From Pseudomonadales bacterium (GTDB lineage: Bacteria; Pseudomonadota; Gammaproteobacteria; Pseudomonadales; Azotimanducaceae), in NCBI GenBank assembly GCA_022448085.1, contig JAKUTH010000005.1, forward strand, positions 1-64,000: DNA of 64,000 nt. Direction: 5' to 3'. The position numbers were made by a program, and so were the translations under genes. The notes under the pieces are model-generated. The model was not told the DNA's origin and searched no databases. It worked only from the letters and a program-made list of their open reading frames with translations. Below, in pieces: positions 56,521 through 61,266 of this stretch. How positions within the stretch are numbered: the first letter of the stretch is position 1; the number at the start of each line of letters is the position of its first letter.

Positions 56521-57600
56521 ATGACCCAGGACGTTGCAACCGACCGACAAGAATTCAGTTTCGATGAGCTCATGGCGGATGATCCATTCGAAAAATCTTT
56601 GGTAACGAACGACATCCAGTGCCACGGCGGGTACATCGATGGCGAATACGTCTCGCCCCGCGGCGCGCTGAGACGCCCCGCCATCCGCAACTGGCGTGAG
56701 CGTCTTTCGGTAGCAGATCATCCATTAATCACGATCCCCGAAAAATACGTGCCCCCCAATTATCCCAACTACGATCAGGCTAAATACCTTCTTCAGGAGG
56801 GCGTCGTTGAACCTGTCACCCGTGCCCTGACAATCATCGCGATCGTCGAAGGTTTTGGCGCACGCATTCGTGAAGTTTCGGTACCCGATTTTGACGCGGA
56901 GGTCGAGGAATCGGTCGACGGAACCGCACTCGCACACCTAGCAAGCGGCCTCTTTGAAGCCCACGCCAGGGACGAGGCCGGCCATCGCGACCAAGGCGGC
57001 CATAAACAAATGTGGGAGGCCGCAAGGGATGCCGGTCTCGACAAACCCGAAATACCCGATGATGTGCTGTTGCGATTGATGTCGGGTGGGCCACCGGCGA
57101 CGCGCAAACGGCTTTACCCTGAACTTTCGGAACGCATGGAATCCATGCTCCTCATGATGACCAACGTGCTCATCATTGAAACGTTTGCCGAAGACACCTT
57201 TAACTGGGCGAAAAAACTTCTTGGGGACCCTGAAGTAAGCGCCGATCCGGTACAAGCCGCTCACATTGTCGATTGCATCGCTCGCGACGAGGTACCCCAC
57301 GTCGACTACCTCACAGTTGCTCTCTCCGAACTGCGCGCGCGCACGCTGATTGGAGCCGATGGCCAATCGACCCTTTCAGGCGCCGATGTGATCGATGGCG
57401 TGTTCCGACGCCAGTTACGCGGCATGGCGACAGTTCGACCGCAGCAAAGTCGGGAACGCAGTCAAGCGGATATCCACCAGGCCGTGTCCGACAAACGCCG
57501 TGCCAGTTCAGTTGCCCGCCAATTTGAAGAGCTTGATTCCGGTTGGACGTTCCCACACCGTGATGATGAGGAACTCGACGTTCTACTGAAAAGCGCGTGA
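56521..57600 (+). CDS. Predicted ferritin-like diiron protein, family not recognised
   Basis: I do not recognise this 359-residue family by name. The mostly helical sequence carries the four-helix diiron pattern in order: Glu110 (IVEGFG), Glu152-x-x-His155 (DEAGH), Glu220 (IIETFAE), and Glu257-x-x-His260 (DEVPH). This is the ligand set of ferritin-like oxygenases and oxidases. The ATG at 56521 has GGAG 6 nt upstream; an open frame begins 45 bases earlier. It overlaps the ABC1 kinase gene by 4 bp (GTGA), so the two are translationally coupled. A role in hydroxylation is inference. Confidence 0.7.
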   Translation: MTQDVATDRQEFSFDELMADDPFEKSLVTNDIQCHGGYIDGEYVSPRGALRRPAIRNWRERLSVADHPLITIPEKYVPPNYPNYDQAKYLLQEGVVEPVTRALTIIAIVEGFGARIREVSVPDFDAEVEESVDGTALAHLASGLFEAHARDEAGHRDQGGHKQMWEAARDAGLDKPEIPDDVLLRLMSGGPPATRKRLYPELSERMESMLLMMTNVLIIETFAEDTFNWAKKLLGDPEVSADPVQAAHIVDCIARDEVPHVDYLTVALSELRARTLIGADGQSTLSGADVIDGVFRRQLRGMATVRPQQSRERSQADIHQAVSDKRRASSVARQFEELDSGWTFPHRDDEELDVLLKSA

Positions 57601-58913
57601 ACGCTGAAGCGAATTCGAGCGTTTTGACGTTCGTCCCTGCGTCGCTCGCGGAACGCGCGTACCGTTCGGCTCAAATTTCGTGGACCGGTTTACGGGTCTG
57701 GCTTCATTACCAAACCCTCATATGGTGGGACAAACTACGGCGGCGCGACCCGGACGCACGTGACCTCCATGCTGTCCATCAAAAAAACGCAGACCTTATT
57801 TTCCACACGGCCGTCTCGTTGCGAGGCATGCTCGTTAAGATGTGCCAGGTCATCGGGACTCGTTCCGACATCTTTCCTCGCGAATATGTATCCGTTTTAT
57901 CCCAATGCCAGGACCGGCTGCCGGCGCGCGAATTCGAGTCTATTCGACAGGTTGTCGAAGAGGACCTTGGCAAGCCCATTGAATCCGTTTTTGCCGAGTT
58001 CGAAACTGCGCCTGTCGCCGCCGCATCCCTCGCTCAAGTGCACCGCGCCCAGTTGGTTACCGGAGAAGAGGTGGCCGTCAAAGTGCAATATCCGGATATC
58101 GAACACATCATGCACACGGATATGACTGCGTCACGTCGCATCGCAGCGTTGTACGCGCGATTCTCAGACAACCCTATCGACTTCTTGCCACTACTCGATG
58201 AATTACAAACCCATCTTCGGATGGAGCTCGATTTTCGCCGCGAGGTAAAAAGCGCAGATCGGATCCGAGATTTTTTTTCTCGTGATCAAGACGTCCGAGT
58301 ACCTATGGTGTTCGAAGAGTTTTCGACCCGACGAATCATCACCATGGAATTCGTTACGGGCGCCAAACCCAACGACCTCGACGAGCTGCATGCGGCGGGT
58401 ATTGATACGCAAGGCTTCATGCTCCGTTTGATGCGTATTTTCAATCGCATGATCCTTGCGCACGGTTTTTTCCACGCCGACCCTCATCCAGGAAATATCT
58501 TCGTCACAGCCGATGAGCGAGGTAAGCCGGTATTTACGCTGCTCGATTTCGGGCTTTCAAAACAACTGCCGCGAGGCTTCGGTATGGGTTTGTTCGAGCT
58601 GATGTTTTCGATGATGACGTTTAACGAATCTGCCATGTTGCGAGCATTTCGAGAGCTCGGGTTCGACACGCGCAAAGGCGATGACGACAGCCTCCTCTAT
58701 ATCGCTCGACGCATGATTTCGCGCTCGGATACCGGTTCGTTTCAGGGTGAATTCACCGAAGATATGACCGATGAAATGTTTGACGCCGTTCGAGAAAGCC
58801 CCATCGTCACGGTACCCACCGATTTCGTATTGGTCGCTCGCGCATTTTCGCTGCTTTCGGGGATCGGTCACGCTATCGGCCAGCGCGGCAACGCCCTTGA
58901 TGCCATGAGCTGA
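57597..58913 (+). CDS. ABC1/UbiB-family atypical kinase
   Basis: This is a member of the UbiB/ADCK family, whose best-known members support ubiquinone synthesis. The 438-residue protein shows the Ala-rich loop AAASLAQVH (141-149), VAVKVQYP with Lys162, ELDFRREV (Glu210/Asp212), HADPHPGN (293-300) and LLDFG (Asp317). The diagnostic KxGQ motif reads KMCQ (81-84), with cysteine for glycine. The C-terminal membrane helices of UbiB are absent. The GTG start overlaps the diiron gene. Its substrate is unknown. Confidence 0.85.
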   Translation: MNAEANSSVLTFVPASLAERAYRSAQISWTGLRVWLHYQTLIWWDKLRRRDPDARDLHAVHQKNADLIFHTAVSLRGMLVKMCQVIGTRSDIFPREYVSVLSQCQDRLPAREFESIRQVVEEDLGKPIESVFAEFETAPVAAASLAQVHRAQLVTGEEVAVKVQYPDIEHIMHTDMTASRRIAALYARFSDNPIDFLPLLDELQTHLRMELDFRREVKSADRIRDFFSRDQDVRVPMVFEEFSTRRIITMEFVTGAKPNDLDELHAAGIDTQGFMLRLMRIFNRMILAHGFFHADPHPGNIFVTADERGKPVFTLLDFGLSKQLPRGFGMGLFELMFSMMTFNESAMLRAFRELGFDTRKGDDDSLLYIARRMISRSDTGSFQGEFTEDMTDEMFDAVRESPIVTVPTDFVLVARAFSLLSGIGHAIGQRGNALDAMS

Positions 58914-58990: not shown

Positions 58991-60391
58991 ATGGAAAACG
59001 AAACGACTCTGACGGCTGACTACCTTGTGATCGGCAGCGGCGCCATGGGGATGGCATTCACTGATGTGCTGATCCAGGAAACCGACGCCTCCGTCGTAAT
59101 GGTGGACCGCCATCATCGACCTGGAGGGCATTGGAACGATTCCTACGCCTACGTTCGCCTGCACCAACCTTCCTCATTTTACGGTGTTAATTCGCGACAC
59201 CTTGGCAGCGACGCCGTTGATCAGACCGGCTGGAACAAGGGATTGCACGAGCTCGCTTCGGGCGCCGAAGTTTGCAACTACTTCGATCAGATTATGCAGC
59301 AGCAATTTCTCCCGTCCGGTCGTGTCCAGTACTTTCCGATGTGCGATTATCTCGGCGAAACCCAGTTTAGATCACTCGTCTCTGGCCGCGAATACGCCGT
59401 ATCCGCGCGCTGCAAGGTTGCCGACGCGACGTACATGGACGTCGTCGTACCGGCCATGCGCACCCCTCCGTTTTCGGTTGACGCCGGTATTCGCTGTATT
59501 CCATTAAATGACCTCACCCGTATCGACGCAGCAGCGCGTCACTACGTTGTGATCGGCGGCGGAAAGACGGCCATGGACGCGTGCTTGTGGTTGCTCGAAA
59601 ACTCTACCGATCCGGGCGCTATTTCTTGGGTCATGCCACGAGATTCATGGATCCTAGATCGAGCGAACATCCAACCTGGTGAACTCAACGCCGAACGTAT
59701 CTTGTCGGGAGCTGCGGAAACTATGTCGGCGGTTGCCAAGGCCGAGTCAGTCGAGGAACTTTTTGACGAGCTAGAAGCTACCGGTCAATTAATGCGTCTC
59801 GATACCAACGTTCGGCCCACCATGTTTCGGTGCGCGACGGTGACCGAAACCGAACTTGAGGCATTACGGAGCATTCACAATATCATCCGGATGGGTCGCG
59901 TCACGGCACTCACCGGTGGGGAGATTGAGCTCGAACATGGCACCGTGGCGGTTGAGAACGATTCACTATTTATCGACTGCGCCGGCGATGGTCTCAAACG
60001 CCAACCCGCGGTGCCCGTTTTCCAGGAAAACAGCATTACGTTGCAGTCCGTCCGTACATGCCAACAAGTTTTCAGTGCCGCATTCATCAGCCACGTCGAG
60101 GCCAGCTACGAAGACGAGCAACAAAAAAACGAACTATGCGCCGTGGTCCCGCATCCAAATTCGGATATCGATTGGTTGCGTAACCGGTTTGCCGACAACG
60201 TGAACACTTTTCGTTGGAACCAAGACCCGAAGCTCATGGACTGGCTACGCGCTTCCCGCCTCGATCCGTTCAACCAGCCCAGCAATGGGGCCGATCAACC
60301 CAACGGTGACGACGCCGAGCGTATCGGCGAAATGATGCGAAACGCGCCGCTCGCGATGCAGAAACTGCAACAATTGTTGGGCTTTGGTTAA
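58991..60391 (+). CDS. FAD/NAD(P)-binding oxidoreductase, flavin monooxygenase-like
   Basis: This flavoprotein of 466 residues has two dinucleotide sites. GSGAMG (15-20), followed by VMVDR and RPGGHW (43-48), indicates FAD binding as in group B flavin monooxygenases. GGGKTA (189-194) suggests an NAD(P) site. No Baeyer-Villiger fingerprint was seen, and the protein could be a monooxygenase or a reductase. It begins 77 bp after the ABC1 kinase on the same strand. A joint redox role with the diiron protein is inferred from this. Confidence 0.75.
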   Translation: MENETTLTADYLVIGSGAMGMAFTDVLIQETDASVVMVDRHHRPGGHWNDSYAYVRLHQPSSFYGVNSRHLGSDAVDQTGWNKGLHELASGAEVCNYFDQIMQQQFLPSGRVQYFPMCDYLGETQFRSLVSGREYAVSARCKVADATYMDVVVPAMRTPPFSVDAGIRCIPLNDLTRIDAAARHYVVIGGGKTAMDACLWLLENSTDPGAISWVMPRDSWILDRANIQPGELNAERILSGAAETMSAVAKAESVEELFDELEATGQLMRLDTNVRPTMFRCATVTETELEALRSIHNIIRMGRVTALTGGEIELEHGTVAVENDSLFIDCAGDGLKRQPAVPVFQENSITLQSVRTCQQVFSAAFISHVEASYEDEQQKNELCAVVPHPNSDIDWLRNRFADNVNTFRWNQDPKLMDWLRASRLDPFNQPSNGADQPNGDDAERIGEMMRNAPLAMQKLQQLLGFG

Positions 60392-60456
60392 CCGTGAGGT
60401 GGAGCGAAAGTAACTCGCCTCCGTATTCCACCATCGTTCCTCTATACGCGTAACTC

Positions 60457-60672
60457 TTAGCGCAAACGATCGACTAATTGATCCTCGTCTGGGAATTCGC
60501 CGGTTTCGTGCTTGGAGTACACCAGGTCACCGTCGACCACCACATCGAAAATTCCGCCGGCGCCTTCAATAAGAAACGCATCGGCGTTATACGCGTCTTT
60601 CAATTTAGCCGCCAAACTGACGGCTTTTGGTTTATACGATCACGCGCCGCAATAAGTAATGGTGATGTCCAT
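60457..60672 (-). CDS. SelW/Rdx-family selenoprotein (in-frame UGA = selenocysteine)
   Basis: Reading 60672 to 60457 gives 71 residues if the UGA at 60640-60642 is read as selenocysteine (residue 11). The N-terminus ITITYCGAUSYKPKA matches the SelW CxxU redox motif. The rest, GGIFDVVVDGDLVYSKHETG and a C-terminal helix, is typical of the Rdx family. GGAG lies 9 nt before the ATG. Conservation continues across the UGA, and a SECIS-like hairpin follows it, so a pseudogene is unlikely. The function is thiol-based redox, exact partner unknown. Decoding would need SelA, SelB, SelD and tRNA-Sec, which are not in the window. Confidence 0.88.
60607..60625 (-). promoter_or_regulatory. Bacterial SECIS-like hairpin in the SelW mRNA
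   Basis: Starting 15 nt after the UGA, the RNA AGCCGUC-AGUUU-GGCGGCU forms seven pairs (one U-G) with a five-base loop. A G is the second loop base, 23 nt after the UGA. Known bacterial SECIS elements have a loop G in one of the first two positions and about this spacing, so SelB could bind it. Confidence 0.75.
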
Positions 60673-60804
60673 TCTCGCAATCTCCAATAATCAAGGAGTC
60701 CACGAATGATAACCGATGCGCGAGGACGTCGTATTTTCAGTGGCAGCCCAATAGGGCTGGAATAAGTACCGACGAATTCACCGCTTGGAATACACTGCAC
60801 GGTT

Positions 60805-61266
60805 ATGCAATCCGGCAGACGAAATATCTGGGTCGATGGTGATGCCTGTCCCAAAAACGTCAAAGAAATTCTATTTCGCGCCGCGGAACGCGTTCGTATC
60901 GAGTTGTTTCTGGTTGCCAATCAGTTCGTTCCGGTACCGAAATCGCCTTTGCTCAGATCCATTCAGGTTCCATCCGGCATTGACGTCGCTGACAACTACA
61001 TCGTGGAGCACGTCTCGCCCGGGGACTTGGTGGTTACCGCGGATATTCCGCTAGCAGCCCTCGTCGTCGGGAAAAATGCAGTCGCCCTCAATCCGCGTGG
61101 AACCCTCTATAACGAGGAAAATATTGGCACCCACCTAGCTCGACGTAATTTCATGGACGAATTGCGGGCCACTGGCGCTGTCACGGGCGGCCCAGACGCG
61201 TTCGGTAAAGTCGATCAGCAGACATTTGCCAATGCCCTAGACCGCTGGCTAGCGAAAAGAAACTGA
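60805..61266 (+). CDS. yaiI: UPF0178/DUF188 protein (YaiI family)
   Basis: This is a conserved protein of 153 residues. [46 protein letters not shown] and [19 protein letters not shown] are the family blocks. The fold is PIN/NYN-like with acidic residues in place for metal binding, but no function has been shown for the family. It is divergent from the SelW gene. A small hairpin (60744-60759) lies in the gap between them. Confidence 0.9.

Follow-up and report, generated by a model that had tools for sequence, protein, structure and literature searches.

A 71-codon gene on the minus strand of the window, the whole 64,000-nt stretch of DNA that was analyzed, is almost certainly a single gene of the SelW/Rdx family, whose in-frame UGA at codon 11 would be read as selenocysteine (Sec) by means of a hairpin lying just downstream. 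The features are as follows.

60460-60672, minus strand: selW-like coding region of 71 codons with a putative Sec codon, UGA, at codon 11 (profile matches, dN/dS)
60457-60459, minus strand: stop codon of the selW-like gene
60640-60642, minus strand: UGA codon predicted to be read as Sec, the U of the CGAU motif (alignment with the second Cys, UGA of relatives)
60607-60625, minus strand: bacterial SECIS-type hairpin, with 5′ arm 60618-60625, loop GUU 60615-60617 and 3′ arm 60607-60614 (folding, covariation, codon-constrained simulation)
60673-60695, minus strand: stretch before the ATG containing GGAG, a possible ribosome-binding site (direct reading)

Direct reading of 60457-60672 on the minus strand gave MDITITYCGAUSYKPKAVS...DRLR followed by a stop, the TGA at codon 11 being the sole internal stop, as the preliminary description had stated; translation with table 11 ended after 10 codons. 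Annotation that takes UGA solely as a stop readily truncates or misses such genes. A mechanical search of the window returned 17 frames of at least 60 codons read through UGA and lying mostly outside ORFs of at least 150 codons. When these were compared with Pfam (the SelW frame from its ATG, one other from its second codon), the SelW frame alone reached a cut-off; one other frame had a sub-threshold match to DUF2045 (E 0.022, 14.6 bits against a cut-off of 25). Within 60380-60900 we found no sigma-70-like promoter, and four terminator-like sites were present against 0.5 expected from shuffles, none of them at the 3′ end of the SelW gene on its own strand.

The protein read through the UGA matched PF10262 (Rdx) over residues 3-71 with 65.1 bits (cut-off 22.6; E 6.5e-18), thus bearing out the similarity previously claimed for both sides of the UGA, and matched TIGR02174 (SelT/SelW/SelH) with 56.1 bits (cut-off 34.2), which places it in this family. 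Its best NCBIfam match was NF041051 (SelTWH_Campy; 75.2 bits, residues 3-70), below the 88-bit cut-off of that equivalog, so the protein is not filed under the Campylobacter-type SelTWH. In an Rdx search of the whole genome bin (2.66 Mb, 137 contigs, 94.6% complete), the SelW frame, with its one TGA, was the sole match (E 4.6e-15). Structure alignments with 2ljk and 2fa8 paired codon 11 with the second Cys of CxxC, in agreement with the earlier placement of the UGA (TYCGAU) at the Sec/Cys position of SelW/Rdx proteins, and the motif near the N terminus reads C8-G-A-U11. C8 and position 11 (U written as C) were invariant among 49 aligned UGA-form sequences, namely the window and 48 of the 74 genome_contigs loci described below. 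An AlphaFold2 model of the protein (mean pLDDT 89.1, pTM 0.72) matched 23 PDB chains from 8 entries at E <= 0.001 with TM-scores (query) of 0.66-0.93, and all 8 entries were also recovered by sequence search. SelW-related proteins came first (2fa8, TM-score 0.90), and thioredoxins ranked next, with E values from about 0.02 upward; the model thus predicts a thioredoxin-like SelW fold.

We next compared codon 11 among relatives. Of 195 genomes from the same genus, family and order, 87 had an Rdx match. In the window's own family, f1 (120 genomes), there were 70: 69 short forms, each with one TGA and no other stop, and a partial match in G119 that did not reach codon 11 and was excluded from the 69. 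The 17 matches outside this family were all without a stop, and two genomes of the family (G009 and G023) carried a second Rdx match without a stop beside the short UGA-type gene. A scan of genome_contigs, with search peptides that excluded codon 11, yielded 74 relatives, 33-99% identical, whose record titles name gammaproteobacteria, planctomycetes, acidobacteria, chloroflexi, actinobacteria and others. Codon 11 was TGA in all 74, and in 86 of 86 loci when the window (L001) and 11 same-family loci were added. It was likewise UGA in all 69 same-family genomes whose short-form match covers codon 11, a set made up of the window, the same 11 loci and 57 other genomes (57/57 TGA); the two sets overlap, 19 of the 57 being identical over 68 codons to loci among the 86. 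The UGA is therefore kept among relatives, with no scattered stops. Over the 57 codons past the UGA, dN relative to the four closest loci was 0, 0, 0.015 and 0.031, with dS of 0.11, 0.46, 0.29 and 1.01 in the same order; relative to six more distant loci, dN was 0.14-0.20 and dS was saturated in five and 1.89 in one. These codons are under purifying selection. Homologues with Cys at codon 11 used TGC or TGT in 13 of 13 placed loci; Cys counts refer to these 13 of 19, as tblastn placement failed for L022, L028, L031, L035, L036 and L038. In a tree of 96 rows and 77 columns, the 13 Cys rows formed one group with support 100/99, and most forks were unsure given so few columns.

RNA folding placed an 8-pair stem with loop GUU at +15 to +33 after the UGA. 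The preliminary description had reported a seven-pair hairpin 23 nt after the UGA: the hairpin is there, +23 is the position of the loop G and not of the stem, which starts at +15, and eight pairs can close. Seven is nevertheless a fair count for the conserved core, because the outermost pair is kept in just 16 of 36 distinct relatives' rows. This layout, a hairpin closely following the UGA and carrying a G in its small apical loop, is that of a bacterial SECIS element. Depending on the stretch taken, 2 to 14 of 200 shuffles folded at least as well, so that the energy alone is only moderately unusual, and a search of Rfam returned only two chance-level matches, neither inside the SelW gene.

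To assess whether the helix is selected as RNA, we analyzed 37 loci (36 distinct), which were picked from the 86 after the folds had been seen, a choice that favours structure in the following counts. Pairing held in 89.6% of helix cells; shuffles gave 81.8% (sd 1.1), and sliding the helix by 1-3 columns lowered the figure to 16-50%. A total of 24 cells were changed on both sides of the helix against 11.2 in shuffles; none of 500 shuffles reached either observed value. Less striking were the numbers of pairs changed on both sides (3 against 2.0, 15 of 500 shuffles being as high) and of further pair types (9 against 7.1, 10 of 500). This comparison excludes L041-L051 and the loci with other loops, all of which entered the codon redraws and loop-codon counts. 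We also redrew codons from the usage of flanking ORFs, entering each distinct hairpin a single time (34 from the 40 near-group loci, 46 from the 46 far-group loci). The near group (gammaproteobacterial loci by our own choice, not all tested for family) formed 7.24 of 8 pairs where the simulation gave 5.46, and the far group 5.91 where it gave 4.68; none of 500 draws reached the observed value in either group. Helix pairs were not in excess among the Cys forms: 3.46 of 8, with 3.24 simulated and 100 of 500 draws as high. As the redraw followed a weak energy test and took its helix from the folds, the slid and shuffled controls and the serine counts given below are the better evidence. That energy test, a general comparison of minimum energies with synonymous draws from a codon pool that contained the hairpins themselves, counted against the Sec reading: the hairpin stretch had a mean z of -0.63, with 9 of 86 loci at p <= 0.05, and three other stretches of the same genes had z of -0.21, -0.51 and -0.41 (8, 8 and 12 of 86). 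Distant UGA loci also often fold with a different stem or loop, and we likewise counted this, as well as the Rfam result, against that reading.

Codon 19 has the loop G at its second position. This base was G in each of the 80 distinct UGA sequences, all of which encode Ser (AGY), Gly, Arg or Trp at this residue. Serine at the loop codon was always AGY (58 of 58; 54 AGT, 4 AGC), compared with 75 of 281 for the other serines of the same genes, and AGT accounted for 34 of 34 loop serines in the near group (3.3 expected) and 20 of 24 in the far group (1.7 expected). The 57 further same-family genomes, which in part hold the same sequences, contributed 54 distinct hairpins with G at +23 in 54 of 54, codon 19 being Ser AGT in 50, Gly in 3 and Arg in 1. 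Since all 13 Cys rows also had G at the loop position, from Trp TGG, the loop G alone does not discriminate between the two forms. Compensatory pairs combined with the choice of serine codon in the loop indicate that the hairpin is selected as RNA. It may be, at slightly less than an even chance, that the short SelW clade is fixed for Sec across many phyla, with the SECIS loop confining residue 19 to codons with a middle G and serine never encoded by UCN; on this reading Cys forms are apparently not accepted, so that the gene would persist only in genomes that retain the Sec machinery.

The machinery that the preliminary description had implied was found in full in the same genome, every component above its cut-off:

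C73:1603-1692: tRNA-Sec (69.2 bits; ARAGORN, tRNA-SeC with anticodon tca, i.e. UCA)
C73:1772-3625: selB (405.9 bits)
C73:3643-4980: selA (547 bits)
C51:15946-16848 (L019): selD (272 bits)

The first three lie side by side, selB and selA on the same strand as tRNA-Sec. The selD match is part of a 731-codon frame, with a CGGCGAK motif and no TGA inside, in which Pyr_redox_2 (91.3 bits) precedes two AIRS domains, and resembles in this the Ndh-SelD fusions as presented in the available portion of PMC2398784. About 100 bases downstream of tRNA-Sec, a minus-strand frame (L002:1-1401) encodes DUF6538 and a phage-integrase SAM-like domain, and selC may be an integration site here.

Across family f1, selA was present in 64 of 69 genomes with a UGA-type SelW gene versus 38 of 51 without a SelW gene (Fisher p 0.0087), where G119 was counted as lacking the SelW gene, G070 and G073, with weak selA matches, as lacking selA, and six genomes with selA fragments as having it (G000-G119, 120 genomes, 104 with a match and 16 without). 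Five genomes with a UGA-type SelW gene (G001, G046, G053, G082 and G118; 81, 93, 73, 87 and 82% complete) had neither a selA match nor a selB match above the cut-off, and these we counted against the Sec reading. The best selB match of three of these genomes falls in a frame of 396-399 codons that is probably EF-Tu; for G046 and G118 it falls in frames of 637 and 879 codons, which probably encode other translational GTPases. In G082, short broken pieces were seen at C8:74215-75189. Since the window's genome carries selA, selB and tRNA-Sec next to one another, the absence of a single contig from an assembly could take away all three at once.

Two further candidate selenoprotein genes were observed in the window's genome, both peroxiredoxin-family frames with an in-frame TGA: G000:C87:2729-3127 (L128; PF00578, 104.8 bits; ...AVWUPPC...) and G000:C51:19-384 (L130; PF00578, 101.4 bits; ...AYTSGUTLECK...). 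With their UPPC and TSGU motifs, we counted them in favor of the Sec reading.

Considering that homologues carry Cys at codon 11 (13 of 13 placed Cys loci from the same order), a Cys-inserting tRNA would likewise give a plausible protein, and the UGA might be decoded as an ordinary amino acid, either Cys or, by a variant code, Trp. This is very improbable: among the 42 mechanical ORFs of at least 150 codons in the window, 19 end in TGA (13 in TAA and 10 in TAG), showing that UGA also serves as an ordinary stop in this DNA, and the genome holds a complete Sec machinery together with a hairpin under selection. That the gene is decayed, the UGA being a true premature stop, as the table 11 reading would have it, and the downstream frame a relic, is still less credible: all 74 genome_contigs relatives and all 69 same-family genomes have UGA at codon 11, the same-family short forms contain this single TGA and no other stop, and dN past the UGA is near 0 for the closest loci.

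Taken with the sequence evidence above, the internal UGA very probably inserts selenocysteine. The gene would form its own transcription unit, judging from the orientation of its neighbours, and translation would begin at the ATG at 60672, the ribosome reaching the UGA at codon 11. There, SelB carrying Sec-tRNA(Sec) would bind the hairpin just downstream, so that selenocysteine is inserted. The predicted product is a SelW/Rdx protein of thioredoxin-like fold, with C-G-A-U between the first strand and the first helix. The CxxU motif points to thiol-selenol redox chemistry, the Cys/Sec pair probably being the redox center; the available part of PMC1088965 suggests the same for CxxU.

The genes flanking SelW in the window are the following, together with ORFs of 374 and 843 codons.

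57597-58913: ABC1 kinase gene, flanking
58991-60391: flavoprotein-like gene, flanking
60805-61266: YaiI/DUF188 gene, flanking

Among the 86 UGA loci, of which L041-L051 hold just about 1.5 kb per side, the flanking genes lay beside SelW only in the window and L052-L055, the other 81 having none of them (tblastn, E 1e-6). The neighbourhood was considered as a clue to function and rejected, since the neighbours are not conserved beyond the closest loci. No viral copy was found in viral_contigs, where 9 stretches matched the pattern and none was a relative, nor any phage copy in 50,697 phage records at E 0.01.

A literature search linking selenoprotein and Azotimanducaceae, a family name taken from the label of the relative L077, found no paper, and a term search of the main text of PMC13188914 did not find the names SelW, SelT or Rdx. 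Genes of this type were known before, and none of the publications consulted names this particular copy. It documents a Sec system in use in this lineage and is a fair test object for bacterial SelW, opening no new class. The near-exclusive use of Sec in the clade and a loop codon choice tied to structure amount to an RNA signal shaping a protein.

Cys-containing Rdx proteins (PDB 2fa8, 2obk, 2oka and 2p0g; 19 Cys loci) share the fold and the N-terminal position of CxxC, whereas the placed Cys loci differ in their Cys codon, a longer part after it, the lack of a helix-pair excess and their single tree group; the helix-pair and tree comparisons used the 13 placed loci, not the PDB proteins. Mouse SelW carries a CxxU motif. 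It matches in sequence and fold (2npb, TM-score (query) 0.72), and differs in that eukaryotic SECIS elements, the kind it has, lie in the 3′ UTR according to the available text of PMC1088965, versus just after the UGA here. The closest counterparts are the SelW-like genes of marine metagenomes. In the parts of these sources at hand, the Sargasso Sea set (2005, PMC1088965) holds 48 of them, with CxxU and a bacterial SECIS, as its most abundant selenoprotein family, against 7 Cys forms, and GOS (2008, PMC2398784) 427 Sec forms against 56 Cys homologues; PMC1794560, likewise in part, describes Cys homologues of SelW-like proteins as scarce or absent in organisms that use Sec and suggests that Sec is the original form. 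Compared by published description, as far as those portions go, and not by sequence, our gene shares with the Sargasso Sea and GOS genes the Rdx/SelW family, CxxU, a bacterial SECIS after the UGA, a marine setting and the preponderance of Sec over Cys, and no essential difference was found. It looks like a real, ordinary bacterial selenoprotein gene, belonging to a family whose frequent occurrence in sea water was established before. The shotgun sets, as described in the same portions, gave no genomic context of this kind, whereas the window's copy lies in a genome bin with its own Sec machinery.
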